From: Xestospongia muta
Taxonomy: Eukaryota; Porifera; Demospongiae; Haplosclerida; Petrosiidae
Assembly (NCBI GenBank): GCA_963693285.1
Contig: OY848917.1
Location: 17,655,245 to 17,719,244, forward strand
Length of the DNA: 64,000 nucleotides
Reading direction: 5' to 3'
The translations under genes and the position numbers were made by a program. Positions 786 to 44,229 of this stretch are shown in pieces. A model generated the notes under the pieces. The model made no database searches. It saw only the letters and a list, made by a program, of their open reading frames with translations, and was not told where the DNA came from. The stretch's first letter is position 1; each line of letters begins with the position of its first letter.

Positions 786-2527
786 CTATAAAGAGGTCTT
801 TTGATATACTTTCTATTTTGTCTTCACTTAATGGAGGATATGCAAGATCCTAGGAAAAAATGAAGTATGAATGTGATGTATGATACAATACAGATAGAAT
901 GTTAGCTAATTTTTCAGATAAAAATTTAAAAACTATCTAATATGCTGAGTTTGCAGGGACTGCCTGCCATACATTTGACACCATTCATATGTGAGACTGG
1001 TATTTCTATAATACAAAATGGCATGTGGTTATCAACTGTTGTGGATTATATTGTGATGTAATACTACTTCAATACTTTGCACAACATCTTTATTTGTCAA
1101 ACTAATCATTTTGTATAAAAAAGGCTATCAATGACAAGGTAAAAAATTTTGGCTATCGATGATAGCACTGGTCTATTAAGCTAGACCCTCATGTTCTTTA
1201 CTGTAAAGAAGAGAGGTCACAATCGAGTTTATTTCTTTGACCAATCAGATTACACTACCCACATTACAGATAGCATGCATGGGTAGTAAGAAGTAGTACT
1301 TTGTTATAGATGTAATTTTGGGCTCACTAATATCTTGCAAGTACAAAGTGATAGATATTTGATACTTGATATAAAGGGGAAAATGCATGTCTAGAGATCT
1401 TTCAATTGGAACATGTGAACTGTAAAATGTTCTAAGGTAGAAAACATCCATTGAATGGTATGTTGTGGGGCTTTTTTGTTTTTGTTTTTGTAATTAGTTA
1501 AGTTCTGATGTGGCCATTGCTAAATCCTTCTTGTGCATCAACAAAGAGGAGGGTCTACCTTAAGACACTATGAAAACACTAAATAAATCATTAATCATTG
1601 TAACTGAAGTAACTCAATTTATAAAGCAGTAGGAAAATAAGGTAAACATCAACAATATGAACATTGAATTATAACATTTAACACCTAACATAACTTAAAT
1701 GCTATCAAGGATCATAAAAATATAATATATAGCATAGTTTTGTAATATATATGTTCAATGATAACATGTTTTATAATAGCACAATTGATATGTACACTGA
1801 TCTCTATTGTAATCTAAGAATGACTCATGCAGACAAGAAAATTTTTTATGCATCACATAACGTGACTCTTGAGATAAAAGGTATATATGGATTGGAGCTA
1901 ATACAAGCTTTATTCCATTAAACTATTAGAAAGTCAATCTCATCAGTATAAAAAATTTACCCAGTAAATATTGTTGATGAGATTGACTTTATCTTTTTAT
2001 AATTCTCATCTACTAACGTACTTTGCAGATTTTTTAATAACATTTCATAAATGTAACACAATGTTTCTCAGTGGTTATATGTCAAATCATTGTGCCAATA
2101 CTTTCTATGATTTTTTTGAGTGAGCTGGTTAAAACATTTTAGGATGTAGTAAACTATAAAATCCATGTCACAGCTTACTTGATTAGCGATATCAGGATTA
2201 GCATTAGCTTTAAGAAGGAGCTGAACACATTCATTATTGCCTTTCTCTGAAGCAATGTACAAAGCAGTTTTGCCATTCTATGTATATGTAAAAGGACATA
2301 TAACAAATGAATGTTAGTATATATGACATAAAGTGACTGAATAAAATTTAGAACATTTCCTTTTAACTATAACCAATTATGAAAGAGATGTTCTTTAACA
2401 TGGTATTAAATAAATATTAGATGACTCATTAATAAATCCACATGTTTTTCTATTCGTTGCTAAACGTTGGTAGCTGCTAATGCTTCAGTTACCAAGTTAT
2501 AGCAGTTCAAAAACAACCCCGGTAACA

Positions 2528-2584
<57 letters not shown>

Positions 2585-5500
2585 ACAGACTACAGTACCC
2601 TCGCTATGCACCCATGCACATTGAGGTTAATAATGTTACTATCAATTGAGTGTGTGTGTATATGTATGAGTAAGCAACTAAAAATAGTGAACTAACTGGT
2701 AGCCAAATACTCCAAACCCATCAGTCATATGGATGTCCTGTCTTTTATTACTAGTAGGTTTGAGATAATTAGAAATGTATCCTCTCCTTATAATGCACCA
2801 AACAACACTTGATTAAGATCAGGGATCAATAGGAAAAATAACCACTTTTAAATTGTGTAAAAATCACTATTTATTATTGTTAAATCACTTAAAAAAATAA
2901 GACATCCAAAATCAGACACCTCATTTAATTTAAACACATAACTTTCAATATTTAATACATTTTTTATTTACTTGTATATCATTTAATTATATAAATTATG
3001 AGCTAGCCAATACTTGTCAGAATAATTATGTAAATATTCCCAAAAATTCATTAAATGCAGAGAAGATGATAGAAACATCTCAAACACTCCCAAAGTAGGA
3101 ATAGAAGTAAGGAAATCCCTACATGGTTGCCACAATATCAAGGGCATAACATTTATTTTGTTGCAATAGTTGTAATGGTATCTTAAGAAAAATGTCTCAT
3201 TAGAAGACAAGTAAAGAGTAATTAGTTGTTTGTTTCTAGAAGGCATCAATTATCACAAGTACAGGATTATTATTTATATCATATAGTACATATAAATGTC
3301 CATTGTAATGTAAATCAGGTGTCCTTGCATCATGAATGTTAGAGAATTAGAAATAGTTAACAAATACCAGACCAGAGCTACATCCAGTACCAGCCTATAC
3401 CTAAACACTTCTCTTAAAGCTATCATGACAATAAATGACCTCATTAATTCTCTCAGTAATAATATTGATGACAGCTGGTATTTTCAGAAAATGATCTATT
3501 CTGCTTAGCACGTTATGCAAGCATGGCTGTCCTGTAATCATTTTCTACCATGTGTTATATATATTTGTGTGTGTGTACGTGTAACAGGTTATGTTTGTTT
3601 TTGTCATTTTAATATATTGCTGTATGGGACTTTCAAGAGCGACAAACGAATGTAAATTGCATCCCTTGACCGCTGACACATATAGCGAGCAATGACTTTC
3701 ATTAACCCTGTGGTATGACAATGTATGTGACTAATAATGCTTGAAGCTTCTAACTAGCCTATTCTTTTGTATTTCAAGCTTCTATAGCTTTCATTTTCCA
3801 TTGACAAGTCAATGTTTCATTGTGAAGTCAGTATTTTCTAAATACCTAGAAATAACAATCACTAGGATTGTAGAACTAAAACTCTCATGTTTACTAAAGG
3901 CATAGAATGAATGCGTGACTTTATATCCTTACTTTGTATTCATCAACATATAGTGTCAATAACACATTATATAATAAGTATTATAAATAGCTATGATTAC
4001 ATTTGTATACTAATATTTCACTGACCTTGTCTGGAACATTCACTTTCACACCAGCATCTAGAAGGACTTGAACAACCTTATCATGACCTTCATAACATGA
4101 TATATGGAGAACATTTTGGCCATCCTACATTACAATAAAACAAAATACATGTAACAATGAAAACAATTTATAAAGTCAATCATTATGCTTAGACAGTCGA
4201 TAAACAATATATGAAAAAAATGTCAAAGGAAAAGACATAATCATACTTCAGTATATGACAGAAGAATATAGGTGATTTATTAATATTTCATAGCAAAATT
4301 AAAAATAACTTCTACAATAATAAATTTGTTACATTTAGAGTCATTTTAGTATTCAGTAACACATAAAATTGATATAACATGAAATGATGTAATAATAAAG
4401 ACAACTCATAATAAATTTAATATAACTTGAAATAATTGTAAAGATGTATCTAAAGAAGGTCATTATCTATCATCAATCGTCACAAAAATTTCTAAACAAT
4501 TTATGGTATAATAATCCCTACATAGTAACCACAGTAAAGTCTCATTAAACATATATATATAGGGCCTTATGTAATGGCTACTATGTAGAGATTTTAATAC
4601 TACCATTCCTACTGTGGTCAGATGTTTTATATCACCACCACTACATTTCATGAATTTATTGTTAATTTTAATGTACTTGTTTACAATGCTTTATTAGAAA
4701 ACAATTCTTTTTATAAGCATATTATTATAAATTGAATGTGTGTGTGTATGAGTAGGCACTAAAATAGTGAACTAACTGGTAGCCAAATACTCCAAACCCA
4801 TCAGTCACATGGATGTCCTGTCTTTTATTACTAGTAGGTTTGAGATAATTAGAAATGTATCCTCTCCTTATAATGCACCAAGAAACACTTGATTAAGATC
4901 AGGGATCAATAGGAAAAATGACAACTGACCACCCTCTATCTTCTTTCTCATAAATAATAAAAAAATTAATTCATTTTAAACAAAATGGTGCCTATTGGGA
5001 GGCTACTTTTAAATTGTGTAAAAATCACCATTTATTATTGTTAAATCACTTAAAATAATAAGATGTCCAAAATCAGACACCTCATTTAATTTAAAAACAT
5101 AACTTTCAATAAAAAATCTTTAAAAGCCTTCTACTTTAAAGCATTCATATTTAATACATTTTTTATTTACTTGTATATCATTTAATGATATAAATTATTT
5201 ATTAGCCAATACTTATCAGAATAATTATATAAAATATTCCCAAAAACTTATTAAATGCAGAGAAGATGATAGAAACATCTCAAACACTCTTAAAGTAGGT
5301 ATAGCAGTAAGGAAATCCCTACATGGTTGCCACAATATCAAGGGCATAACATTTATTTTGTTGCAATAGTTGTAAAAGTATCTTAAGGAAAATGTCCCAT
5401 TAGAAGTCAAGTATGTTCAACATAACAAAAAAATATAACATAATTTTGTATTTCGGGTACATTTATGTGGCTATTATGTAGGGATGTCCATACTGTCATT

Positions 5501-8500
5501 CCTAGTTTGGATTTTCTTGACCACCTTTCCCACATTAATGAATTTTACTAAATTTCATTTACTTGTTTGTGTTATTTTTACTTGAATCATAAATTAGCTA
5601 AAATATGTTCATAATTAATGTCTATTTTTGTTTACAATTATAGGTTAGATGAGTATACTCAGATATACTAGACAACAGAGCATTGCTATAATTTATAATA
5701 TGTATTGAATAATCTATGCATCAGAAAGTAGAATTTATGTATGGATGTGTAATTACACCAATAACAAATAAAGTAGAAATAGCCAATTGAATTAGTAATG
5801 TTCTGTAAATATACCAGTTTCTTGATTGCTAAAAGATACGACTAATCTGATCTCCGTAAAACATAAAATAATAGATTACTGGCAAACCTCAAGTTGACAC
5901 CACTTAAAAGAGGTCAATAAAATTGATCTCCCATTTCCCTCATGAATATGATCGTAACTTATAAAAGTGGATACTTCATGTGAAAACATACCTTGCAGTG
6001 TAAGCATAGTTTTCTAGCCTACTCTCTTATAGTTATCATGGTCTAAACAGATTAAAGAACAAAAAACATTGTGTTATCTCTACATAGGCAATGCTACTGT
6101 CTGTTTGACTAAAGAAAGCCAATTTTCAACAGTTATTTATGTGAATTGATCAGGACAAATGGTGGAACAAGTAACCATCTTAACTAGGAACAAATAAGAA
6201 AAGATAAGGGTATAATAAATAAAAAATAATAGTAAAAACTGTAGTTCCAAAATTAACATTTGCAGAGAAATTTAACAAAGAAATATGCAAATAATTAATA
6301 AATATTACAAACTGGATGTAATAAAAGCAAATATAAATTACAAGACAGAGATAGAAAAACATTGTGGGAGGGAGGGAGGGGGCAAAGCAGATGCAGCCAC
6401 ATATCAAATAAAAATAATTGCTTTGAATCACCTAACTGATAAAATCTGTTGAATGCAACTAAAAATTACACTGAAATTATTGAGGCTGATGACTATTCTA
6501 TTAAGCAAACATCATACCAAAATAGAACATGTAGCTCTTATGTCATTTCATCAATAAAATATCATCATGTCTGTACTTCCATGTAAGTCTCATTATATTA
6601 TTCACAAGTATATAACAATAACCAACATTATCTCTGTATGACAATTATTACATCAGACAAACTGTAGCTCTTCAACATTCTGTACATCATATATGACATT
6701 TTCTTAAAAAGACTATTTCAATTTTTCTTGTAATAGTAAAAAACTAATGCTTATTTTAGGAAATTATTATATTTAGTTATAAGACAATATTTCAAACTTC
6801 ATTATATTAGTAAAACAACCAATGGTTGTCATCAGGGAAAGGAGCTCTATTTTATCTTCAGTTATTCAACTTTTCTCATATAACCTAAGTACATGAACAC
6901 TTACTCTGTTGACAAGGTCTAGATTGGCTCCTTTCTGTGCTAAAATTAAAACAACATCTTTGTGTCTGTTCTTTGCAGCTAACATGACTGGAGTAAATCC
7001 CTCCTAAATATATTATAATAACCACATTAACATGAACCAGGAGAACATCATAATATCAGTACATTATCTATACTAACACTGTTATATATGAGTACACTAG
7101 TAACAAAAACAAGAGAATAAACAAAATGACAAAATTGCATTCAATACACTTAGAATTTTTACATTATAATATATCACACTTACGTCCTATTATATTGCAA
7201 AAGACACATTCAGATGACAAGTAATGACAGCATCATAAATGTAGAAACAAAAACAATAGAGTAAACAAAATGACATAATTGCATTATATGAATACACTAG
7301 TAACATTATACATTAACACGAACCAAGAGAATATATCATAACCACATTAATATCAAGCAAGACAACATTGTACATTATCCATACTAGTACTATCATAATT
7401 ATAGATATATTTATACTAATAAGTACACTAGAAGTTTACACAACATAATGTCTAGTCAAAGAAAGTATCAGTCATATCAACTACTTTTATGTTAAAAAAC
7501 ACTCTCAATAACTCTTTAATAATGGGATCAATACAAATAATACTGTTAAATATATAAATAAATGTAGTCTTTACAAATATTTTACATATATATCAGCATA
7601 TTTTAAATGACACATTCAGATAACAAGTAATTATGTGTGGAAATAAAAAAAATAGTAAAAAATGACAAAATTGTGTTCATTACACTTAGAATTTACATTG
7701 TAACATATTACACTTACCTCCTATTATATTGTAAAGAACACATTCAAATGATGTGTAATGACAGCATCATAAATGTGTTAACAAAATACAATAAAATGAA
7801 CAAAATGACAAAATTGTATTCATTAGAATTAATAATTTACATTACAATATATCACACTTACCCACTATTATATTGTAAAGGACATACATTTAGATGACAA
7901 GTATTGACAACACCATAAATGTGGAAACAAAAAAATAGAGTCAACAAAATGACAAAATTCCATCCAAAACAATTAGAATTTACATTACAATATATCATAC
8001 TTACCGACTATTATATTGTAAAGAACACATTCAGATGATGAGTAATGATAGCACCATAAATGTGGAAACAAAAAACAATAGAATGAACAAAATGACAAAG
8101 TTGTATTCAATACACATAGAATTAACATAAAAATATATCATACTTACTCGCTATTATATTGTAAAGGACACATTCAGATGATGAATAATGATAATATCAT
8201 AATTGTGAAAACAAAAGCAATATAGTAAACAAAATGACAAAATTACATTCATTACAATTAGAAATTACATTAGAATATATAACACGTACCGACTATTATA
8301 TTGCAAAGGACACATTCACATAAGAAGTATTGACATCATCATAAATGTAGAAACAAAAACAATAGAGCGAACAAAATGACAAAATTCCATCCAATGCAAT
8401 TAGAATTTACATTACAATATATCACACTTACTGCCTATTATATTGTAAAGAACACATTCAGATGATGAGTAATGATAGCACCATAAATGTAGAAACAAAA

Positions 8501-11500
8501 ACAATAGAGTGAACAAAATGACAAAATTACATTCAATACAATTAGAAATTACATTAGAATATATCACACTTACCGACTATTATATTGCAAAGGACACATT
8601 CACATAAGAAGTATTGACATCATCATAAATGTAGAAACAAAAAAAGAGAGTAAACAAAATGACAAAATTACATTCATTACAATTTGAAATTACATCACAT
8701 TATATCACACTTACCTCCTATTATATTGCAAATGACACATTCATATGAGAAGAATTAACATCATTATAAATGTAGAAACAAAAACAATAGAGTGAACAAA
8801 ATGACAAAATTCCATCCAATACAATTAGAATTTACAATACAATATATCACACTTACTGCCTATTATATTGTAAAGAACACATTCATATGATGAGTAATGA
8901 TAGCACCATAAATGTGGAAACAAAAAACAATAGAATGAACAAAATGACAAAGTTGTATTTAATACACATAGAATTAACATTAAAATATATCACACTTACT
9001 CGCTATTATATTGTAAAGGACACATTCAGATGATAAATAATGATTGTATCATAATTGTGAAAACAAAACAATATAGTGAACAAAATGACAAAATTACATT
9101 CATTACAATTAGAAATTACATTAGAATATATCACACTTACCGACTATTATATTGCAAAGGACACATTCACATAAGAAGTATTGACATCATCATAAATGTA
9201 GAAACAAAAAAACAATAGAATAAACAAAATGACAAAATTGCATTCAATATGCTTAGAATTTACATTACAATATATCACACTTACTTGCTATTATATTGCA
9301 AAGGACACATTCCCATAAAAAGTATTGACATTCATAAATGTAGAAACAAAAACAATAGAGTGAACAAAATGACAAAATTACATTCATTACGATTTAAATT
9401 TACATTACAATATATCACATTTACTCGCTATTATATCGTAAAGGACGCATTCAGATGATAAGTAATGACAGCACCAAAATGTGGAAACAAAAAAACAATA
9501 GAATGAACAAAATGACAAAATTGCATTCAATACACTTAGAATTTACATTACAATATATCACACTTACTTGCTATTTTATTGCGAAGAACACATTCCCATA
9601 AAAAGTATTGATATCATCATAAATGTAGAAACAAAAACAATAAAGTGAACAAAATGACAAAATTCCATCCAATATAATTAGAATTTACATTACAATATAT
9701 CACGCTTACCAACTATTATATTGTAAAAGACGCATTCAGATGATAAGTAATGACAGCATCATAAATGTGGAAACAAAAAAACAATAGAATGAACAAAATG
9801 ACAAAATTGCATTCAATATGCTTAGAATTTACATTACAATATATCACACTTACTTGCTATTATATTGTAAAGGACACATTCCCATAAAAAGTATTGACAT
9901 TCATAAATGTAGAAACAAAAACAATAGAGTGAACAAAATGACAAAATTACATTCATTACGATTTAAATTTACATTACAATATATCACACTTACTCGCTAT
10001 TATATCGTAAAGGACGCATTCAGATGATAAGTAATGACAGCACCAAAATGTGGAAACAAAAAAAACAATAGAATGAACAAAATGACAAAATTGCATTGAA
10101 TACACTTAAAATTTACATTACAATATATCACACTTACTTGCTGTTTTATTGCGAAGAACACATTCCCATAAGAAGTATTGATATCATCATAAATGTAGAA
10201 ACAAAAACAATAGAGTGAGCAAAATGATAATATTTCAATAATTACAATTTTAATTTACATTACAATATATCACACTTACCCACTATTATATTGCAAAGGA
10301 CACATTCATATGAGAAGTATTAACATCATCATAAATGTAGAAACAAAAACAACAGAATAAACAAAATGACAAAATTGCATTCAATACATTTAGAATTTAC
10401 AATACAATATATCATACTTACCCACTATTATATTGTAAAGGACACATTCAGATGATAAGTAATGACAGTACCATAAATGTGGAGACAAAAAAAATAGAAT
10501 GAACAAAATGTCAAAATTGCATTCAATACACTTAGAATTTACATTACAATATATTATACTTACCAACTATTATATTGTAAAGAACACATTCAGATGATGA
10601 GTAATGATAGCACCATAAATGTGGAGACAAAAAAATAGAAGAACAAAATGTCAAAATTGCATTCAATACACTTAGAATTAACATTACAATATATCATACT
10701 TACCAACTATTATATTGTAAAGAGCACATTCAGATGATGAGTAATGACAACACCATAAATGTGGAAACAAAACAATAGAGTGAACAAAACGACAAAATTA
10801 CATTCATTACAATTTAAATTTAAATGACAATATATCACACTTACCAACTATTATATTTTAGAGGACACATTCACATAAGAAATATTGACATCATCATAAA
10901 CGTAGAAACAAAAACAATAGATTGAACAAAGTGACAAAATTGCATTCAATACACATAGAATTAACATTAAAATTAATCACACTTACCTCCTATTATATTG
11001 CAAAGGACACATTGAGAGGATGAGCATTGACAACAGCATAAACATGAAAACAAAACAATACAGTGAACAAAATGACAAAATTGCATCCAATACAATTAGA
11101 ATTTATATTACAATATATCACACTTACCACCTATTATATTTTAGAAGACACATTCATATGATAAATAATGATAGCACCATAAATGTGGAAACAAAAAAAC
11201 AATAGAATGAACAAAATGACAAAATTGCATTCAATACAAACAATAGAGTGAGCATACTGAAATAATTCTATTCATTACAATTAGAATTTACATTACAATA
11301 TATCACACCCTTACTAACTATTATATTGCAAAGAATACATTTAAATAAGTAGTATTGACATCATCATAAATGTAGAAACAAAAACAATAGATTGAACAAA
11401 GTGACAAAATTGCATTCAATACACATAGAATTAACATTAAAATACATCACACTTATGATCTATTATATTGCAAAGGACACATTCAGAAGATGAGCAATGA

Positions 11501-14500
11501 CAACAGCTTAAACATGAAAACAAAACAATAGAGTGAACAAAATGACAAAATTGCATACAATACAATTAGAATTTACATTACAATATATCACACTTACCAA
11601 CTATTACATTGCAAAGGACACATTCAAATGATAAATAATGACAACATCATAAATGTGGAAACAAAAACAATAGAGTGAACAAAATGACAAAATTCCATTC
11701 ATTACAATTTAAATTTAAATTACAATATATCACACTTACCAACTTTTATATTTTAGAGGACACATTCAGATGATAAGTAATGACAGCACCATAAATGTGG
11801 AAACAAAAAACAATGGAATGAACAAATTGACAAAATTGCATTCAACACACTTAGAATTTACATTACAATATATCATACTTACCCGCTATTATATTGTAAG
11901 GGACACATTCAGATGATAAATAATGACAACACCATAAATGTGGAAATAAAAACAATAGAGTAAGCAAACTGAAAAAATTCGATTCAATAAAATTTGAATT
12001 TTCATTACAATATATCACACTTACCAACTATTATATTGTAAGAGGACACATTCAGATGATGAGCAATGACAGTACCATAAATGTGTAAACAAAAACGATA
12101 GAATGAACAAAATGCCAAAATTGCATCCAATACAATTAGAATTTATATTACAATATATCACACTTACCAACTATTTTATTTTAGAGGACACATTCATATG
12201 ATGAGTAATGATAGCACCATAAATGTGGAAACAAAAAAACAATAGAATGAACAAAATGACAAAATTGCATTCAATACAAACAATAGAGTGAGGATACTGA
12301 AATAATTCTATTCATTACAATTTAAATTTACATTACAATATATCAAACCCTTACCAACTATTATAGTGCAAAGAATACATTTAAATAAGAAGTATTGACA
12401 TCATCATAAATGTAGAAAAAAAAACAATAGATTGAACAAAGTGTGACAAAATTGCATTCAATACGCATAGAATTAACATTAAAATATATCACACTTATGA
12501 TCTATTATATTGCAAAGGACACATTCAGAGGATGAGCAATGACAACACCATAAATGTGGAAACAAAACAATAGAGTGAACAAAATAACAAAATTGCATCC
12601 AATACAATTAGAATTTACATTACAATATATCACACTTACCAACTATTACATTGCAAAGGACACATTCAAATGATAAATAATGACAACATCATAAATGTGG
12701 AAACAAAAACAATAGAGTGAACAAAATGACAAAATTCCATCCAATACAATTAGAATTTACATTACAATATATCACACTTACTAACTATTATAGTGCAAAG
12801 GACACATTCAAATGATAAATAATGACAACACCATAAATGTGGAAACAAAACAATAGAGTGAACAAAATGACAAAATTGCATCCAATACAATTAGAATTTA
12901 CATTACAATATATCACACTTACCGACTATTATATTGCAAAGGACACATTCAAATGATAAATAATGACAGTATTATAAATGTGGAAACAAAAAACAATAGA
13001 ATGAACAAAATGACAAAATTCCATCCAATACAATTAGAATTTACATTACAATATAGCACACTTACCAACTATTATATTGCAAAGGACACATTCAAATGAT
13101 AAATAATGACAACATCATAAATGTGGAAACAAAAACAATAGAGTGAACAAAATGACAAAATTCCATCCAATACAATTAGAATTTACATTACAATATATTA
13201 CACTTACCCACTATTACATTGTAAAGGACATATTCAAATGATTAATAATGACAGTATTATAAATGTGGAAACAAAAAACAATAGAATGAACAAAATGACA
13301 AAATTGATTCATTCCAATTTAAATTTACATTATAATATATCACACTTACCAACTATTATAATTTAGAGGACATATTCAAATAATTAATAATGACAGTACC
13401 ATAAATATGGAAACGAAAAACATAGAATGAAGATAATGACAAAATTGGAGTTAATACACATAGAATTTACATTAAAATATATCACACTTACCCCCTATTA
13501 TATTGTAAGGGACACATTCAGATGATAAATAATGACAACACCATAAATGTGGAAATAAAAAACAGTAGAATGAACAAAATGACAAAATTGCATTTAATAC
13601 ACTTAGAATTAACATTAAAATATATCACACTTACCCCCTATTACATTGTAAAGGACATATTCAAATGAGAAGTATTGACATCACAATAAATGTAGAAACA
13701 AAAACAATATAGTGAACAAAATGACAAAATTCTATTCAATACAATTAGAATTTACATAACAATATATCACACTTACCCACTATTATATTTTAGAGGACAC
13801 ATTTAAATGATAGAATAATGATAGCACCATAAATGTGGAAACAAAAACAATAAAATGAAGAAAATGACAAAATTGCATTTAATACACTTAGAATTTACAT
13901 TACAATATATCAGACTCATCAACTATTATATTGTAAAGTACATATTCAGATGAATAAATAATGACAACACCATAAATGTGGAAACAAAAACAATCGAGTG
14001 AGTAAAATGACAAAATTGATTCATTTCAATTAAAATCTACATTACAATATATCACACTTACCCACTATTACATTGTAAAGGACATATTCAAATGATTAAT
14101 AATGACAGTACCATAAATATGGAAACGAAAAACATAGAATGAAGATAATGACAAAATTGGAGTTAATACACATAGAATTTACATTTAAATATATCACACT
14201 TACCCCCTATTATATTGTAAAGGACACATTCAGATGATAAATAATGACAACACCATAAATGTGGAAATAAAAAACAGTAGAATGAACAAAATGACAAAAT
14301 TGCATTTAATACTCTTAGAATTAACATTAAAATATATCACACTTACCCACTATTACATTGTAAAGGACATATTCAGATGAGAAGTAATGACAGCACCAAA
14401 AATGTGGAAACAAAAAACAATAAAATGAACAAAGTGACAAAATTACATTCATTACAATTTAAATTTACATTACAATATATCACACTTACCCACTATTACA

Positions 14501-17500
14501 TTGTAAAGGACATATTCAAATGATTAATAATGACAGTACCATAAATATGGAAACGAAAAACATAGAATGAAGATAATGACAAAATTGGAGTTAATACACA
14601 TAGAATTTACATTCAAATATATCACACTTACCCCCTATTATATTGTAAGGGACACATTCAGATGATAAATAATGACAACACCATAAATGTGGAAATAAAA
14701 AACAGTAGAATGAACAAAATGACAAAATTGCATTTAATACTCTTAGAATTAACATTAAAATATATCACACTTACCCACTATTACATTATAAAGGACATAT
14801 TCAGATGAGAAGTATTGACATCACCATAAATGTAGAAACAAAAACAATATAGTGAACAAAATGACAAAATTCCATTCAATACAATTAGAATTTACATAAC
14901 AATATATCACACTTACCAACTATTATATTTTAGAGAACACATTCAAATGATAGAGTAATGATAGCACCATAAATGTGGAAACAAAAACAATAAAATGAAG
15001 AAAATGACAAAATTGCATTTAATACACTTAGAATTCACATTACAATATATCAGACTCATTAACTATTATATTGTAAAGTACATATTCAGATGAATAAATA
15101 ATGACAACACCATAAATGTGGAAACAAAAACAATAGAGTGAGTAAAATGACAAAATTGATTCATTTCAATTTAAATTTACATTACAATATATCACACTTA
15201 CCCACTATTATATTTTAGAGGACATATTCAGATGATAAGTAATGACAGTATCATAAATGTGGAAACAAAAAACAATAGAGTGAACAAAATGACAAAATTG
15301 CATTATATAACACTTACTAACTATTATATTGCAAAGAACACATTCAGAGGATGAGCAATGACAACAGCATAAACATGGAAAAAACAATAGAGTGATCAAA
15401 ATGACAAAATTCCATCCAATACAATTAGACTTTATATTACAATTAGACTTTATATTACAAAATATCACACTTACCAACTATTATATTGTAAAGGACACAA
15501 TCAGATGAGTAATGACAGTACCATAAACGTGTAAACAAAAACGATAGAATGAACAAAATGGCAAAATTGCATCCAATACAATTAGAATTTATATTATAAT
15601 ATATCACACTTACCAACTATTATATTTTATAGAACACGTTCAGATGATAAATAATGACAGCAGCATAAATGTGGAAACAAAAAACAATGAAATTAAAAAA
15701 TGACAAAAATTGCATTTAATACACATAGAAATTACATTACAATATATCACACTTACCCCCTATTATATTGTAAAGGACACATTCAGATGACAAGTAATGA
15801 CAGCATCATAAATGTGGAAACAAAAAAACAATAGAATGAACAAAATGGCAAAATTGCATTCATTACAATTTCAATTTTCATTATAATATATCACACTTAC
15901 CGCCTATTATATTGTAAAGGACATATTCAGATGATAAGTAATGACAGCATCATAAACGTGGAAACAAAAAAACAATAGAATGAACAAAATGGCAAAATTG
16001 CATTATATAACACTTACTAACTATTATATTGCAAAGAACACATTCAGAGGATGAGCAATGACAACAGCATAAACATGGAAAAAAAATAGAGTGATCAAAA
16101 TGACAAAATTCCATCCAATACAATTAGACTTTATATTACAATTAGACTTTATATTACAAAATATCACACTTACCAACTATTATATTGTAAAGGACACAAT
16201 CAGATGATGAGTAATGACAGTACCATAAATGTGTAAACAAAAACGATAGAATGAACAAAATGGCAAAATTGCATCAATACAATTAGAATTTATATTATAA
16301 TATATCACACTTACCAACTATTATATTTTATAGAACACGTTCAGATGATAAATAATGACAGCAGCATAAATGTGGAAACAAAAAACAATAAAATTAAAAA
16401 ATGACAAAAATTACATTTAATACACATAGAAATTACATTACAATATATCACACTTACCACCTATTATATTGTAAAGGACACATTCAGATGACAAGTAATG
16501 ACAGCATCATAAATGTGGAAACAAAAAAACAATAGAATGAACAAAATGGCAAAATTGCATTCATTACAATTTCAATTTTCATTATAATATATCACACTTA
16601 CCGCCTATTATATTGTAAAGGACATATTCAGATGATAAGTAATGACAGCATCATAAACGTGGAAACAAAAAAACAATAGAATGAACAAAATGGCAAAATT
16701 GCATTCATTACAATTTCAATTTTCATTACAATATATAACACTTACCCACTATTATATTGTAAAGGACACATTCAGATGATAAGTAATGACAGCATCATAA
16801 ATGTGGAAACAAAAAACAATAGAGTGAACAAAATGACAAAATTGCATTCAATACACATAGAATTAACATTAAAATATATCACACTTACCAACTATTATAT
16901 TGTAAAGGACATATTCAGATGATAAATAATGACAGTACCATAAATGTGGAAACAAAAAAACAATAGAATGAAAAAATGAGAAAATTGCATTTAATACACA
17001 TAGAAATTACATTACAATATATCACACTTACCACCTATTATATTGTAAAGGACACATTCAGATTACAAGTAATGACAGCATCATAAATGTGGAAACAAAA
17101 AACAATAGAATGAACAAAATGGCAAAATTGCATTCATTACAATTTCAATTTTCATTACAATATATAACACTTACCCACTATTATATTGTAAAAGACACAA
17201 TCAGATGATAAGTAATGACAGCATCATAAATGTGGAAACAAAAAACAATAGAGTGAACAAAATGACAAAATTACATTCAATACACATAGAATTAACATTA
17301 AAATATATCACACTTACCAACTATTATATTGTAAAGGACATATTCAGATGATAAATAATGACAGTACCATAAATGTGTAAACAAAAAAACAATAGAATGG
17401 AAAAATGAGAAAATTGCATTTAATACACATAGAAATTACATTACAATATATCACACTTACCACCTATTATATTGTAAAGGACACATTCAGATGACAAGTA

Positions 17501-20500
17501 ATGACAGCATCATAAATGTGGAAACAAAAAACAATAGAATGAACAAAATTGCAAAATTGCATTCATTACAATTTCAATTTTCATTACAATATATAACACT
17601 TACCACCTATTATATTGTAAAAGACACAATCAGATGATAAGTAATGACAGCATCATAAATGTGGAAACAAAAAACAATAGAGTGAACAAAATGACAAAAT
17701 TGCATTCAATACACATAGAATTAACATTAAAATATATCACACTTACCCACTATTATATTGTAAAGGACATATTCAGATGATAAATAATGACAGTACCATA
17801 AATGTGGAAACAAAAAACAATAGATAAAAAAAATACCAAAATTGCATTCATTACAATTTGAATTTTCATTACAATATATAACACTTACCGCCTATTATAT
17901 TGTAAAGGACACATTCAGATGATAAGTAATGACAACATCATAAATGTGGAAAAAAATAGAGTGAACAAAATGACAAAATTACATTCAATACACATAGAAT
18001 TAACATTAAAATATATCACACTTACTCGCTATTATATTGTAAAGGACATATTCAGATGATAAATAATGACAGTACCATAAATGTGGAAACAAAAACAATA
18101 GAATGAGCAAACTGACAAAATTGCATTTAATACAATTAGATTTACATTACAATATATCACACTTACCATCTATTATATTGTAAAGGACATATTCAGATGA
18201 TAAATAATGACAGTACCATAAATGTGGAAACAAAAAACAATAGAATGAACAAAATGGCAAAATTGCATTCATTACAATTTGAATTTTTATTACAATATAT
18301 CATGCTTACCAGCTATTTTATTGTAAAGGACATATTCAGATGACAAATAATCACAGCATCATAAATGTAGAAACAAAAACAATAGAATGAACAAAATGGC
18401 ATCATTACAATTTGAATTTACATTATATCACACTTACCGACTATTATATTGTAAAGGTTACATTCAAATCACAAGTAATGACAGCATCATAAATGTGGAA
18501 ACAAAAAATAATAGAATCAACAAAATGGCAAAATTGCATTCATTACAATTTAAATTTTCATTACAATATATCGCACTTACCGCCTATTATATTATAAAGG
18601 ACACATTCAGATGACAAGTAATGACAGCATCATAAACATGGAAACAAAAAACAATAGAGTGAATAAAATGACAAAATTGAATTCAATACACATAGAATTA
18701 ACATTAAAATATTTCACACTTACCAACTATTATATTGTAAAGGACACATTCAGATGATAAATAATGACAGCACCATAAATGTGGAAACAAAAACAATAGA
18801 GTGAGCAAACTGACAAAATTGCATTTAATACAATTAGATTTACATTACAATATATCAGTATTACTCGCTATTATATTGTATAGGACATATTCAGATGATA
18901 AATAATGACAGTACCATAAATGTGGAAACAAAAAACAATAGAGTGAGCAAATGACAAAATTGTGTTTAATATAATTAGAATTTATATTACAATATATCAC
19001 ACTTACCAACTATTATATTGTAAAGTACACATTCAGATGACAAGTAATGACAGCATTATAAATGTGGAAAGAAAAAACAATAGAATGAACAAAATGACAA
19101 AATTGTATTCATTACAATTTGAATTTTCATTACAATATATCATGCTTACCTCCTATTATATTGTAAAGGACACATTCAGATGACAAGTAATGACAGCATT
19201 ATAAATGTGGAAACAAAAAACAATAGAATGAACAAAATGATAAAATTGTATTTATTACAATTTGAATTTTCATTGTAATATATCTAACTTACCGACTATT
19301 ATATTGTGAAAGACATATTCAGATTACAAGGAATGACATCACCATAATGTGGAAACAAAAAACAATAGAATAAACAAAATGACAAAATTGCATTCAATAG
19401 ACTTAGAATATTTACATTACAATATATCACACTTACCTCCTATTATATTGTAAAGGACGCATTCAGATGACAAGTAAAGACAGCATCATAAATATGGAAA
19501 CAAAAAAAATTAACAAAATGACATTTAATACACTTAGAATATTTACATTACAATATATCACACTTACCCGCTATTATATTGCAAAGGACACATTCAGATG
19601 ACAAGTAATGACAGCATGGAAACAAAAAACAATAGAATGAACAAAATGACAAAACGACATTCAATACATTTAGAATTTACATTACTATATATCACACTTA
19701 CCATCTATTATATTGTAAAGGACACATTCAGATGACAAGTAAAGAGAGCAACATAAATGTGGAAACAAAAAACAATTGAGTGTACAAAATGACAAAATTG
19801 GAATCAATACACTTAGAATTTACATTACAATATATCACACTTACACGCTATTATATTGTAAAGACACATTCAGATGAAGAGTAACAACAGCATCATAAAT
19901 GCGGAAACAAAAAACAATAGTGTGAACAAATATGACAAAATTGTATTTAATACACTTAGAATATTTACATTATAACATATCACACTTACCTCCTATTATA
20001 TTGCAAAGGACATATTCAGATGACAAGTAATGACAGCATCATAAATGTGGAAACAAAAAACAACAGAATGAACATAATGACAAAATTGCATTCTCTATAA
20101 GATAAATATAAATATAATGTATGACATATTTTTATATTTGTAATATAAGCACTGAATATTAATATAAATTAAAATATAAATTTGAAAATAAATATTCTGT
20201 TCAAATATTTCATTGCGTCTATGTACAATGTAGGAATATCCATACTACCATTCCTACATATTTTGGACTTGTTTCAGATGTTTTTATTGCTATCCTTACA
20301 TTAAATGAACTTTAGATCTTTTATTTACACTTCTTTGTCTTATTTTTTATTTAAATTATATACTAGCTAAAGATGTTCACAATGTCTTTTTTCATTGTTA
20401 TTATTATACATGTAGGTTGGATGAATGTACTTAGGATATACTATACAACAGAGCATTGCTAGTTAATACAGAAATAGCACTAGCAATGTACTCTAAGTAT

Positions 20501-22566
20501 GCATATTTCTTTACTGATAAAAGCAAAATAAACTAATCTCCTTAAGTTAAACAATGGTTACTGAAGAAGGAACTCGAGTACACTCAACATAGAACAGGCC
20601 TTGTGGTAGAATCAAATACTAACTCATTGAACTTTCTTTATATTTATGACCTCTGTTACATCCTCATAAATATGATTGTAACTAATTAATAAATACAAAT
20701 AAATTGGATTCTTACACAGAGACTACTTCCTAGCTCTTTATAAAAAATACTTTCATTGTTAAGTGTTAGAAATAAGACTTCTAAAACTATGTACCTTATG
20801 TAAAATCACAATGTTTTGCAAAACATAATTGTTAATAATCTTTTCTACTTATTGTGACACAAATAAAAATCTGATAGACTTGTTTAAGTCAGACACAGTA
20901 GTTGTTTATCGTTATAATCTTTATGTTATGTCTTTACTAAAAGTTACGATCTATTCACACAGCTTAAAGATTTGACTTCATTCTCATGATATCAATTACC
21001 TCAATAACAACATTGATATTAGCATTATGGTCGACTAATATTTCAACAATATCTCTATCTCCTTGAGAACTTGCATAATGAAGAGCTGTCCATCCTCTCT
21101 ATTTGAAAAACACACAAACTATCAATTGTAAAATTAGACCACTAACACTCTACAATAACAGTACATACACACAACTTGTCTTTACATTGTTAGTCTATTA
21201 AATATTATCAAGTCAGCCAGTACTTCCATATGACTCTATTATCATATTATTTATAACTCTACTACAATAACCAACATTATCTCATCTGACAATTACTGTA
21301 TCTGACAAATTATTAGCAGTTTGCACAATAAAAACAAAGAAGGCTGACTTTTTAATCTCAATTTTATGTCATTCTAATGTTTCTATATTAGCAAGGTTAA
21401 CAATAGTAATAGATATACCAATACGTTTGAGCATATACTGGTACTATAATCATACTAAGTTTCAGAAATATACTGGTAGTCAGAGACACAATACTTCTAG
21501 TTTTAAACATCCAATTTTAAAAGAAAAACTAAAAACATAACATAACAAAGTCATGCTTCATACAATGTTCTTCACTATTATTTATGTGTCAGCACCTGAA
21601 CTGATTACTGGAATATTTATGTAAAAAGTGATGTTTATCTATTATTATTATTTATATTATTTACCATAACAACCTAAATGTAATATAATAACCAAATTAA
21701 TATGAAATAGACTTACAACGTCTGTAGCATTTACATCAGCTCCTCTAACTAGAGCATCTTTTACTCCTAACAAGTCTCCTTTCTGAGCAGATTCAATTAG
21801 ACTGTTATTCTATTATAAAAACAAAAATATTAAATGCATTAATAAATGTACGACAGGATTTACATAAATCTAAAAAGACTTTAAAATAAATATTGCCCAG
21901 CAACTTCTTAGTTAATTTATTTTAATGATTTCTTGTAGTCTAATAATTTCTACAAAACATTGAACAGTATACCTAGTCATGTAGTAGTGAAAAGTTTGGG
22001 TATAATATCAATAGGAACATCTTTAATATAGTGCTAAAGGTTATCTGATTCAGAGATATATCTTGGACTAAAAGCAAACTAATTTACATCATTACATTAT
22101 CTTGTAATGTCCTTTAACATATTAAAAACTTGAGACAATATTTTACAAGTATTCATATGAATAATGCTCCATAAATGTTCAATGACTTATGCAGTATGTG
22201 TATGAATATTGAGTATATAAACTATAAAAAGAGCAATAAACAGTATCTTAAAACAACAATTAATGAAACATAACAAAAAAACAGAATTTGCAATAACCAT
22301 AGACAGTAATCATGAACTCATATTTATATACAATCATAAACCACTCATCAATAGTACTAACACTACACTACCATGAATTTTCATGAATTAAAAGTTCTAT
22401 GCGATTCCTATCTAGCATATAGATATCAGTGTATTTGAAATAACTATTAACTCATTTATGATTATATATATTCATCAAAACAAGCTTTATACATGTATAT
22501 ACATACATACATAAATATATGCATATATACATATATATATATATATATATTTATTTATTTATTTAT

Positions 22567-22617
<51 letters not shown>

Positions 22618-23601
22618 TGAGGCTAACCTCACTTCTTCCACAATGTTTTATTACATATAAACCACACACAGTATGAACATTTAGATTTGATTCATTTGGG
22701 ACAATTATTACACATTACAGTATGAGATCTTGCAATGCGCATTAGATACACAGAGCATTTGTGTTTGCAGTAAAATTTGACAAAACTATATTTTATTAGA
22801 CTGCTATATATTCATCACTAGTTTCATAGTCTTCTAATATAATACTATATGTCTTAATCTATATATGAGAACATAGCCACCCTGACAGGTCACTGATAGT
22901 TGAGAACTATTATATAACAAAAAGTTTTCTTGACAAACATTAAACTTTACATACAGCTGTAGGCATCAATTTTGAGCAAAAATCATAAATTTTAACAGTA
23001 TACACATACCATACACAAAAGTATGACAGTATTGTATTGTACAGCTGATAAATTTATAAGAATAGTATGTTTTGAAAGTATTTGCCTTGATTCTTTCACA
23101 AAGGACAAATTCTGACATCTAATCTAATTACTATGATAGCTATAGCAACAACTAAAATTGAAAAGGAAGTTAGCCTGTGGTAGACCTATTGTACCCTATC
23201 AAGCAGGAATGACAAACTTTCCATTCACTTGTAGGTTACATACATGTATGGATTATAGTGACTGAAGATGACTACTACCTTTTATCAGCAGAACATTATA
23301 TAACCAAACAGACTAAACTACACAAGCTCTACATAATTATCTTAATATCAAATTAATATTGGATATTAAGAGTTATGGGATGTTATACATTGGATATATA
23401 AGTCCATTAGTCAGTAAATACATGAGTCACCTCACAATGGGGTGTGTAACAATAGTTACAGAATAGAATATTAATTAGACTGGACAGCTAAATACAACTA
23501 TTAATATATGCAGATCACTACATAGAGTGACCCATTCATTATATAATATGCCTTATATAGTAATAGAATTATGATATACTTACCAATTTCTTCTGGTCCA
23601 T
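786..23601 (-). CDS. Ankyrin-repeat protein gene, probably ending in a Death domain outside the window
   Basis: Coding exons in transcript order: 23584-23601 (MDQKKL), 21717-21809, 21000-21098, 6905-7003, 4026-4124, 2179-2277 and 786-849. All have GT/AG borders, and all junctions are phase 0 up to the last exon, which ends in phase 1. The four 99-nt exons each encode one 33-residue ankyrin repeat (for example GWTALHYA, GFTPVMLAA, GKTALYIA, followed by VQLLL- or VEILV-type helices). The 93-nt exon is a capping repeat starting NNSLIESAQKG. Ankyrin stacks bind protein partners and have no catalysis. The 64-nt exon (DLAYPPLSEDKIE...) matches, in length, phase and sequence, the exon that precedes a Death domain at 63003-63066. 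I therefore infer an ankyrin-linker-Death adaptor whose last exon lies left of base 1. If GTTAG at 781-785 is not spliced, the frame stops at once at TAG. No COR-like exon is visible between 849 and 2179, unlike in the right-hand paralogue. Function is unknown; innate-immune or apoptotic scaffolding is inference. Confidence 0.75.
1930..1990. repeat. Perfect 16-bp inverted repeat (hairpin) in an ankyrin-gene intron
   Basis: AAAGTCAATCTCATCA at 1930-1945 is the exact reverse complement of 1975-1990, with a 29-base AT-rich loop. It lies about 190 bp downstream (in gene sense) of the ankyrin exon at 2179-2277. It could be a foldback element remnant. Confidence 0.6.
2529..2582. repeat. (AC)n microsatellite
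   Basis: An uninterrupted AC dinucleotide run of about 27 units in an intron of the ankyrin gene. The short open frame across it (poly Thr-His) is an artefact of the repeat. Confidence 0.95.
2640..3255. repeat. Intronic direct repeat, copy 1 (copy 2 at 4730-5420)
   Basis: The segment from the GTGTGTGTATATG run through to the minus-strand open frame ending near 3249 recurs at 4730-5420 with scattered substitutions and an extra ~90-bp block at about 4920-5010. Both copies keep an open minus-strand frame containing CNKINVMPLILWQPCRDFLT. I recognise no family. A duplicated piece of intron or an old dispersed repeat is the simplest reading. Confidence 0.7.
4730..5420. repeat. Intronic direct repeat, copy 2
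   Basis: Partner of 2640-3255, separated from it by the intron stretch and ankyrin exon 4026-4124. The arrangement fits duplication of an intron-exon unit during growth of the ankyrin repeat array. Confidence 0.7.
5430..6660. repeat. Segment duplicated on both sides of the satellite array
   Basis: About 5430-6030 resembles 20190-20800 (shared CATACT..CATTCCTA and CAACAGAGCATTGCTA blocks), and 6560-6660 resembles 21200-21320 (shared CAATAACCAACATTATCT). The offset is 14.6-14.8 kb, the same as between ankyrin exons 6905-7003 and 21717-21809. The intron context of these exons therefore descends from one duplicated ancestor, with the satellite expanded between the copies. No coding exon was seen here apart from ankyrin exon 6905-7003 just beyond. 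Confidence 0.6.
7095..20092 (-). repeat. Tandem array of about 88 units of ~142 bp, each resembling a mini-intron on the minus strand
   Basis: I counted about 88 copies of the core CTTAC-NNN-CTATTATATTG (plus strand) spaced about 138-186 bp apart, mostly 140-144. The first copy is at about 7181 and the last at about 19986. The array is interrupted at about 7290-7600 by a duplicated piece of flanking intron. On the minus strand, the sense of the host gene, every unit reads CAATATAATAG-NNN-GTAAGTG: a branch/acceptor-like end, three bases, then a near-consensus 5' splice site. Each ~139-bp stretch between cores thus starts GTAAG and ends TAG like an intron. Only a few units have lost the donor (about 11450, 12490, 13915, 15055). 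The three central bases vary widely between units. The array fills most of the intron between ankyrin exons 21000-21098 and 6905-7003. Plus-strand open frames inside it are translations of the repeat, not genes. Confidence 0.95.
22495..22616. repeat. (TA)n and TTTA low-complexity tract
   Basis: Alternating TA with a short TTTATTTATTTA interruption, in the first intron of the ankyrin gene. Confidence 0.9.
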
Positions 23602-24997: not shown

Positions 24998-26677
24998 ATG
25001 TCGGTGCGATTGATTGATATTGAAGACTTGGTTATACTGAAAATTGAACAAGAACAATGGACTCACAAAGACTTGTCAGAGTACTTAAAAAAAAGATTTC
25101 CAAACATCAAGGGGGCTAGCATACGATCTATTGAGAGGTTTTGCAACTTAAAAAATATTCACAAAACCTCCAGGCCAACTTATCTTCAGCTAAATAATGC
25201 TGTTAGCAGGGCAGTTCATAAGGTGAATTATTTAATCAAGGGATAAGCTTGCAATTGCTTTCTTATATTATGCAAAGGTTGGACCTGTCTATGGTCGAAA
25301 GACAATAACTGGCTTTTTGGCATCGGAAGGAATGCGTGCTTCTGAGGTCCGTGTAGGAAAAGTTTTAAAAGATATTACTCCTGTTTATCATCAAGCAAGA
25401 CGAAAAGACACAGCGAGGAAGTTGAATCCTATTCCATATATAGCTCAATATTTTGGGCAAAAATTACACATCGATCAAAATGAGAAGTTAGTCAGATATG
25501 GAGTAACTCACATTTGTTGCGTCGATGGATTTAGTAGGAAAATTGTCGGTTTTGCTAGTATGCCTTTAAAGAACAACTTGGAGATCTATGAACATGTCTT
25601 TAGGTAAGATCACAAGAAAATGCCATATAAGATTGGCAGGATGATTTGGTAAATTTGCCAATTACTTGAAGACATACATGTAATCATGCATGCATGTATG
25701 AAAAGTGATAAATCAATCTTCAATCCACCAAAAAGTACTTACAAAATTTACTTCTAAATAACCTATTACTATACAGTAAACTTTCTATATTGAAATACAT
25801 CAAATGCCTTATAGACATTCAGATGAAAGCATTGCATGCATTAAGTGATATAATGCATGTGATATAGCTAGTTATAGGACCTTATAGGAATCATCATATC
25901 AGGTTTCTTTTTATGTAGACCTCTGCTATTGAATTTTGGTATTTGGGATCAAGTGCGTGTTGATAAGGGAAAGGAATGGTATCTTTTGTTGTTTATTCAA
26001 GAAAAACTCAGCCACATCAGATATGACAAAGGGAAAGCTCCACACTTACAGACACCTTCAACGATGGTAAGTTGCATGCAATCAAGTAAATTTCTTATAA
26101 TCTACTCTTAATTGCAGAATCATGTGGTTGAGAGAATGTGGGAAGAATTTAATTCAAGGGTAAATTATCCCATCAAGCAATGTTTAACAGAAATGGAGAA
26201 TGACCATGTAATAGATATGGTTAATGACACACATAAATTTTGTGTGTCTTGGGTAACTATTAGAGTTGCAAATGTTGGGACAACAATTGTTATAAAATCT
26301 TGGAATAATCATCGTATTCCGAGTAAGTTTCACAACATGTATCTTAGTTGATTTGTCTTACAGAAAAGGGTATACCTGACATACTTATGAAGAAAAAGAA
26401 TCACATGGTTCCTGTTATGCCCACTCTGATTCCAGTAGTCAGTGACGCTGTTCGAGAATATGAGGCTCTGGGTGGCTCACTAACAAGATCCAGTTCTTTT
26501 GGTATTGATCCTTTGGAATCAAGTCCTGTTCTAAAGGAGAGAAGGCAAGAGCTATTTCATTCACAATATCCACAGTTTGACCCTGTATTTTACAGCTGTG
26601 TTAATGATAAAAGTCATATCTTTCGCAAATGTGTGCTATACTTCATTTACATAACAGAATATCTTTCACAATATTAG
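24998..26677 (+). CDS. DDE integrase-like transposase, left arm copy
   Basis: Five exons with consistent phases: 24998-25222, 25278-25603, 25919-26066, 26118-26322 and 26364-26677, giving about 405 residues. The first exon is a small helical region rich in charged residues and is probably DNA-binding. The integrase fold follows, with the first acidic residue in HIDQNEKL (about D141), the second in VRVDKG (about D199) and the glutamate in NHVVERMWEEF (about E238). It also has the family's CVDGFSRKIVGF strand and a RVNYPIK segment after the glutamate. These residues are expected to bind the two metal ions for strand cleavage and transfer at the element ends. The start ATG is the first in the open frame and lies about 490 bp inside the terminus. 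No stop or frameshift was seen, so the gene looks intact and recently active. An identical mirror copy lies in the other arm. Confidence 0.85.
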
Positions 26678-37929: not shown

Positions 37930-38378
37930 AATAAAAAGTAATGGGAAAAGATTCCTGTTTTCACCATGTTTGAATGACATCTGTTTTTTTGTAACTAACA
38001 GTAAATTTATATCCAAATATAGTCATTTTATTCACATTATTTATCTCAAATATGTTTCTGTTCATTACTATTGAGCTGTGGAACTCCTTGCTACATGCCA
38101 TCACAATGTTTCGTGTCTGACAATTTTATTGTACCGACTCTTGACCCCATTGTGATGAACTGAGATGGGCAGCTATCTATAATCGAGTCTCAATATACCT
38201 TATGTTAATATTATTAATATTCTCTACTCAGGCTCAGGAATTGAGGCTAACTTCAGCTACGTATATTCTCTTGTCAAAAACTCCACTATTGCAACTAGTG
38301 CAATGGGGGAGGGTGCGTTACTGTAAGGGAGGGACTGCTTATTAATGCTGATTATGCACACTACAATTACGCACAAAC
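37930..38378 (+). promoter_or_regulatory. 5' flank and leader of Argonaute A (downstream copy of the duplicated segment)
   Basis: This segment directly precedes the ATG at 38379 and is the second copy of the tandem duplication. The promoter of Argonaute A is therefore likely within it. No clear TATA box can be singled out in such AT-rich sequence. Confidence 0.4.
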
Positions 38379-44060: not shown

Positions 44061-44229
44061 ACTGACACTGACTATAGAGAACCTATAATGTATTACTGAG
44101 ACTGACTATAGAGAACCTATAATGTATTACTGAGACTGACTATAGAGAACCTATAATGTATTACTGACACTGACTATAGAGAACCTATAATCTATTACTG
44201 ACACTGACTATAGAGAACCTATAATATAT
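44061..44229. repeat. 34-bp tandem repeat, five copies
   Basis: Unit ACTGAGACTGACTATAGAGA plus ACCTATAATGTATT, nearly identical in each copy, inside the intron between Argonaute A exons 10 and 11. Confidence 0.9.

Follow-up and report, generated by a model that had tools for sequence, protein, structure and literature searches.

Rows of candidate single-codon exons in an ankyrin-repeat gene family of the sponge Xestospongia muta

We analysed a 64,000-nt stretch of the genome of the sponge Xestospongia muta (GenBank assembly GCA_963693285.1, contig OY848917.1, positions 17,655,245 to 17,719,244; this whole stretch is referred to as the window), in which one intron of an ankyrin-repeat gene carries an array of ~142-bp units in tandem. 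The units are candidate short introns, and wherever the acceptor word (TATAATAG) is followed by the donor word (GTAAGTG) a triplet of bases separates the two. From the sequence of these triplets, in the window and elsewhere in the genome, we infer that a 3-nt exon was duplicated in tandem, giving rows of single-codon exons that are likely spliced serially and translated as a loop between ankyrin repeats, of ~84 residues in the window. We put the probability of this reading at roughly 0.8.

The array and its host intron

A search of the window for TATAATAG-N3-GTAAGTG, with up to three mismatches, found 88 minus-strand cores, which span 7177 to 20000. Both AG and GT are kept in 84 of them and GT is lost in the other four, in agreement with a preliminary description of this DNA that had counted about 88 units. 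The spacing from core to core is 141-144 bp in 71 of the 87 gaps, and Tandem Repeats Finder (TRF) reported a period of 143 with 87.3 copies at 7636-20093. The array and the exons on either side of it are as follows.

7095..20093, minus strand: tandem array of ~142-bp units (88 cores; TRF period 143)
21000..21098, minus strand: ankyrin exon e1 (99 nt, phase 0), on the upstream side of the array, RGWTALHYASSQGDRDIVEILVDHNANINVVIE
19990..19992, minus strand: GAG, the codon unit transcribed first and a predicted 3-nt exon (core 19983-20000)
7184..7186, minus strand: last codon unit, GAC, predicted 3-nt exon (core 7177-7194)
6905..7003, minus strand: ankyrin exon e2 (99 nt, phase 0), on the downstream side of the array, EGFTPVMLAAKNRHKDVVLILAQKGANLDLVNR

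The array thus occupies a phase-0 intron between e1 and e2, in the sense orientation of the ankyrin gene. The sequence of e1 ends in ...GTTATTGAG, the predicted codon string of the array opens with GAGCGTATGCGGGAGTCGGAG... and closes with ...TGGGAGGAC, and e2 begins with GAGGGATTTACT. The donor of e1 is GTAATT and that of e2 is GTAAGTGTT; donors of the array units resemble those of e2, and their acceptors resemble those of ankyrin exons.

Seventeen distinct triplets are present among the 88 cores, which bears out the earlier count of at least 16 forms. When 80 units were aligned (the other eight fell outside 125-150 bp or had no following core), the two columns of highest entropy were triplet position 2 (1.84 bits) and position 1 (1.66 bits), against a median of 0.26 bits. 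Position 3, at 0.92 bits, was unremarkable among the columns. The triplet had been described as hypervariable; strictly, this is true of two of its three bases.

Constraint on the triplet

The exact 25-mer TATAATAGNNNGTAAGTGTGATATA occurs 3,186 times in the genome (941 + 2245), far more often than expected by chance, and its reversed control pattern does not occur. Twenty stretches of 10 kb and seven shorter ones were fetched for study and are cited by number; L001-L008 overlap L009 and were excluded from the tallies, and L034-L036 were scanned for ankyrin exons alone.

The gap between acceptor and donor words was exactly 3 nt for 852 of the 858 donor words that had an acceptor word within 60 nt upstream. 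The count excludes 66 donor words lacking such an acceptor word, which comprise some units with a changed acceptor and many chance matches. The six exceptions were gaps of 2 nt (twice, the same L013 sequence in both cases), 5 nt (once) and 31-43 nt (three). This spacing bears on the proposal, made in the preliminary description, that the units are ratchet points for recursive splicing. At a ratchet point the acceptor and donor directly adjoin and no nucleotide is retained in the mRNA. The array is similar in that the donor word follows almost directly upon the acceptor word, and the long intron could likewise be removed stepwise, but here one codon sits between the two words, and the proposal does not fit a gap of three nucleotides.

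Stop codons are nearly absent from the triplets. Among the 3,186 exact cores TAA and TGA do not occur and TAG occurs once, while one-base neighbours of stops are common (CAG and GAG together 484, TGG 221). Other counts are 7 for TAT, TAC, TGT and TGC together, 14 for triplets with C as third base and 118 for those with A as first base. Of 928 units in 25 stretches a single one contains a stop (TAG in L029, an array with several damaged splice words as well), compared with 64.5 ± 5.6 when triplet positions were shuffled within each stretch. When the shuffle was limited to the 233 distinct stretch-and-codon combinations, 16.1 ± 3.0 stops were expected, and the minimum over 2000 shuffles was 7. 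Units with more than two mismatches in the 14 flanking letters were dropped from the triplet listing and from the analyses of codon use and stop permutation; the latter two also dropped units without AG or GT (GTAA in the permutation). Had the units been decoy splice sites, as was also suggested, a free triplet would be expected to hold stops, and one in 3,186 is difficult to reconcile with that suggestion. AGA and AGG are absent as well (3.1 and 5.1 expected), as they would be if a second AG were avoided.

Codon use within arrays is restricted. In 21 stretches (856 units), the 174 array-and-amino-acid pairs are served by 212 distinct codons, a ratio of 1.218 compared with 1.465 ± 0.026 after shuffling. 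The serine codon, for instance, is TCA in L010, TCT in L031 and mostly TCG in L028 and L032. Homogenisation of silent bases with the amino acid held would give this pattern; it would also follow from a single founder unit for each amino acid in an array. The triplet is under strong coding-like constraint. Two other readings were considered and rejected: decay of CpG as the source of triplet diversity, which fits the rarity of C as third base but not the absence of TGA beside common CGA and CAA, and arrays of tRNA anticodons.

Comparison of intact and changed units

Seven loci mix intact cores with cores whose donor reads NTAATTTTG, and so contain an internal control. The 119 intact units at these loci carry 18 different triplets, with 1.5-2.4 bits per locus. 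In contrast, the 97 changed units carry GAT (89), CTT (7) or AAT (1), with 0-0.28 bits. In L023 all 14 changed units read GAT, and 12 of the 14 have lost GT. Outside L023 many changed units keep GTAATT, the donor that e1 itself uses; such units may therefore remain usable, and we call them changed rather than dead.

In a neutral satellite, intact and changed units should vary equally, or changed ones more. An explanation of this type treats the array as a non-coding satellite with a free triplet, its conserved blocks binding a protein or serving as decoy or ratchet splice sites. It accounts for the many copies, the homogenised units and the conserved blocks flanking the triplet. However, a free triplet should include stops and should not become fixed where the donor is lost, whereas one stop was found in 3,186 cores and variability is confined to units with an intact donor. 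Moreover, any use of the array sites in splicing puts the triplets into mRNA regardless. We consider a non-coding satellite highly improbable, and its form with bound motifs was rejected on the avoidance of stops and the near-fixed triplets at changed donors.

Further comparisons concern the variability of triplets relative to introns. The 475-bp higher-order unit of L015 and L016 (38 units) has a median column entropy of 0; the two highest values among its 475 columns, 1.81 and 1.47 bits, are those of the first two triplet positions. The commonest bases there are T at the first position, A tied with T at the second and G at the third, so that TAG is an expected combination; it is absent. Among nearest pairs of units with flanks identical over 130 nt, the triplet differs in 21 of 126, and introns are thus homogenised more than codons. 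Some aligned duplicates keep the series of codons almost unchanged (triplet bases changed: L025 0/21, L021 1/45, L014 2/87, L011/L012 1/36). A count of 17 synonymous and 990 nonsynonymous changes over aligned blocks mixes registers and is unusable as a rate test.

Position and orientation in the genome

Searches (tblastn) of the fetched loci with the e1 and e2 peptides gave 67 matches, all of them on the array strand. Merging overlapping matches leaves 33 exon copies, spread over 11 of the 25 stretches. In 32 of the 33, an AG precedes and a GT follows the exon exactly at the codon boundaries; one copy in L009 has AT. All eight complete e1-to-e2 introns contain cores (2 to 84 each). Of 14 complete e2-to-e1 introns, 12 are free of cores and each of the other two has a single one; the intron entered for the window has at its end a further ankyrin exon that e1 matches. 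At the small end of the range, each intron of L026 has an intact unit and a changed one, and L019 has two units per intron. In L034-L036 no convincing ankyrin exon was found, the scan giving two weak short matches.

Orientation was also compared at 65 array sites, using 300 listed ankyrin exons (the best 150 from each of two candidate sets, of 2,946 and 4,244). An exon lay within 12 kb of 37 sites and was on the same strand in all 37; the other 28 sites had no listed exon nearby. At C1:15.776-15.778 Mb both a core and an ankyrin exon are on the minus strand amid plus-strand neighbours, as if inverted together. The splice-sense orientation put forward as a check in the preliminary description is thus upheld wherever it could be compared, by all 33 exon copies and by all 37 sites with a listed exon. 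Its suggestion of a chain of 3-nt micro-exons likewise gains support, from stop avoidance, the 3-nt spacing, the phase-0 host intron and the sense orientation, and further from the few codons per amino acid in each array and the near-fixed triplets at changed donors.

The position of the arrays also bears on whether an introner-like mobile mini-intron, the remaining earlier suggestion, was inserted between successive codons of a pre-existing coding sequence. Introners are dispersed near-identical introns, some families of which have target-site duplications, and they often leave target-site repeats of 3-9 bp (PMC9860276). The sponge units share with them near identity and many copies, and introns identical over 130 nt can indeed flank different codons, as in the 21 nearest pairs above. 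The units, however, stand side by side in a homologous intron of a set of paralogues and are not scattered over unrelated genes: cores were found in every e1-to-e2 intron and were missing from most e2-to-e1 introns, with 14 of the 25 stretches unplaced. Blocks of several units are tandem copies, and the two triplets that flank a unit are usually different, which makes target-site duplication an unlikely source of them. Because the arrays, wherever they could be placed, share a single homologous intron among the ankyrin paralogues, they can be explained without a mobile intron, and we see very little likelihood in it.

Host gene and other features of the window

The COX1 on the mitochondrial contig of the assembly matches, at 100% identity over 522 residues, a database cluster named for Demospongiae whose representative is I6LIL5_XESMU, which marks the animal as a demosponge and probably close to X. 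muta. The joined host exons match Pfam Ank_2 (E 1.2e-36) and Ank (1.2e-36), and the gene has the 33-residue repeats of an ankyrin-repeat gene. Exons in addition to e1 and e2 are as follows.

23584..23601, minus strand: candidate for the first coding exon, MDQKKL, with a predicted start codon (read by eye)
21717..21809, minus strand: upstream host ankyrin exon, NNSLIESAQKGDLLGVKDALVRGADVNATDV (read by eye; ankyrin domains found on the joined exons)
4026..4124, minus strand: downstream host ankyrin exon, DGQNVLHISCYEGHDKVVQVLLDAGVKVNVPDK
2179..2277, minus strand: downstream host ankyrin exon, NGKTALYIASEKGNNECVQLLLKANANPDIANQ

Ankyrin exons of 33 residues each form a very large expansion: two 33-mer queries gave 2,946 and 4,244 first-look candidates. 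Among the best 150 of each set, most are on contig C1 of G000, at about 7-35 Mb.

Elsewhere in the window, two identical 123-aa reading frames lie in opposite orientation (25236-25607, plus; 31630-32001, minus). They match the integrase core PF24764 with 23 bits, below the cut-off of 26, and are possibly the inverted ends of a mobile element. An RG-rich stretch leads into an Argonaute N-terminal domain (ArgoN, E 4.7e-21) at 38352-39182 (plus). The sequence of a 34-bp tandem repeat at 44060-44229 (5 copies, 97% match) is unrelated to that of the array.

Two observations concern other loci. In L011 a 147-aa frame (9494-9937, minus) lies ~2.5 kb beyond a 12-unit array on the opposite strand and has no Pfam match. 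In L027 frames with a membrane-spanning-like stretch (6826-9615, minus) lie upstream of an array on the same strand; the three that were checked have no Pfam match.

Predicted peptides

Read in order, the triplets resemble protein sequence: L014 contains ...LQEKQRQELQRQFQRKEELQRQFQRK..., L021 repeats SQLPPLPPLK and L017 repeats TSMEQPPPP. L019 reads EQWKEDLRRELRLEEERLELKRQRQEE, ankyrin exons, EE, ankyrin exons and WKGWKEQEDLRLKRERDKHLWLFDRKR, where the first and last runs are incomplete because the stretch ends within them, and a weak core (AGT) of an e2-to-e1 intron is omitted. The string predicted for the window array, with the four GT-less units omitted, is ERMRESELRLASLMRAWVVLWVLWAVLLLAGLLLWLWGWWGWWGGLWLSLLLLLRLLLVELLLWWQRQLQRQSRAESASRSWED. 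Its residues 16 to 54 are without charge, and the best 19-residue mean hydropathy is 2.71 (P = 0.0018 against residue shuffles), a value that is only suggestive since neighbouring units are related. If translated, the row would encode two hydrophobic, membrane-like stretches between charged ends.

Observations against translated single-codon exons

Several observations weigh against the reading of the arrays as translated single-codon exons. The first concern the triplet itself. Two L013 units have a gap of 2 nt. Sense codons are depleted too (observed/expected: GTA 0/14.7, CTA 3/26.1, CAT 3/25.4, GTT 2/17.6, TAT 1/16.2), so the shuffles overstate the share that is specific to stops. A TRN triplet creates a donor-like GTRNGT overlapping the acceptor, and splicing itself may disfavour TRN; the count of 1 for TAG versus 221 for TGG is the only comparison that separates stop avoidance from this effect. 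The units are also related through duplication and, consequently, the counts are not independent.

Other observations concern the evolution and surroundings of the arrays. Triplets sometimes change more than introns, as in L015/L016 (12 of 96 triplet bases, with 1.3% change in the intron), L010 (19/45), L028 (18/51), L017 (6/72) and L022 (15/81). The register of the unit alignment may be off, which may in part explain these high values; slow turnover of codons is accordingly not claimed. The triplets of L030 (G000:C4:3979000-3983499) are nearly all TTG, with one TTC, and several of its splice words are damaged; this array is a homogeneous and perhaps decaying relative of the variable ones. No ankyrin exon was seen in 14 of the 25 stretches. 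Several of the 14 are filled by the array, but L011 and L012, which are paralogues, have several kb of flank. A search for an intron-less genomic copy of five array peptides found none, although such a search could not prove absence. Likewise no database homologue of the array was found: a window model that included it matched 73 proteins, for which coverage was not checked residue by residue, and the names and Pfam entries shown for them are ankyrin.

A further explanation accepts the triplets as exons but makes them optional, with e1 joined straight to e2 in most transcripts and subsets of codons included alternatively. As e1 and e2 are 33 residues each, the ankyrin repeats would be normally spaced even without the array, and stops in optional codon exons would still be selected against. 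Isolated 3-nt exons with alternative splicing are known (PMC8042270). Weak inclusion, though, explains poorly the single stop in 3,186 cores and the codon differences retained between identical introns. Optional inclusion seems unlikely to us, and we prefer rows of single-codon exons that are likely spliced in series and translated.

Proposed mechanism

Three bases cannot accommodate the donor and acceptor complexes simultaneously. Intron definition with serial removal would thus be needed, and each unit of ~139 nt may be recognised as an ordinary short intron. Removal of each intron would add one codon to the upstream exon and expose a new donor immediately after that codon, and splicing could thus proceed along the array one codon at a time. 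The arrays probably originated by tandem duplication of a 3-nt exon together with its flanking half-introns, in which case L026 and L019 would represent the small end of the series. Unequal exchange within the repeated introns could then gain, lose and shuffle single codons; recombination would homogenise the introns while selection at the protein level would keep the codons distinct.

The junction of e1 and e2 falls at the turn between ankyrin repeats, which tolerates insertions and is a frequent place of ligand binding. We speculate that the array loops are used in recognition. Whether hypervariable ankyrin loops are written one codon per exon, with the identical introns as recombination tracks on which single residues are edited in the germ line and the frame is left intact, seems to us an evenly balanced question.

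Comparison with known systems

Micro-exon genes (MEGs) of Schistosoma have 10-20 exons of 6-81 bp (3-81 in the abstract), mostly 15 bp (PMC10526429). As predicted, the sponge arrays would resemble MEGs in their many tiny exons, mostly multiples of 3, their far longer introns and their variable products. They differ from MEGs in lying in sponge ankyrin genes, in having up to 84 consecutive 3-nt units and in their near-identical tandem introns. Nearly all matched units have 3 nt between intact splice words, which would make a row of very short exons if they are used as such; the secreted MEG proteins are a different family, as the host exons match Pfam ankyrin families. The array would work like the MEG architecture and is not a member of the MEG family.

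Single 3-nt microexons occur in Ncam and in Drosophila TnT (PMC8042270); they too are exactly one codon, but they are lone exons in ordinary genes rather than long tandem rows. The bicycle genes of aphids are a rapidly evolving family recognised by exon structure and are apparently not composed of tandem single-codon units (PMC9168663). In the literature searched, from which subscription papers and preprints were largely absent, no array of single-codon exons was found described. The components are known separately; as far as we found, a row of single-codon exons dozens long, with recombining near-identical introns, is apparently new.

If this reading is true, the ankyrin genes contain a stretch of protein in which every amino acid has its own exon, dozens consecutively. 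Such a stretch would test the lower bound of exon size and the extent of serial splicing, and would allow a protein to grow and be edited residue by residue through recombination of introns. Published abstracts report that exons this short cause trouble for common aligners and gene predictors, and similar genes may therefore lie hidden in other genomes. In X. muta a codon-by-codon system of diversification, if it exists, would span thousands of residues in an expanded ankyrin family and may possibly serve in the recognition of microbes or of self.

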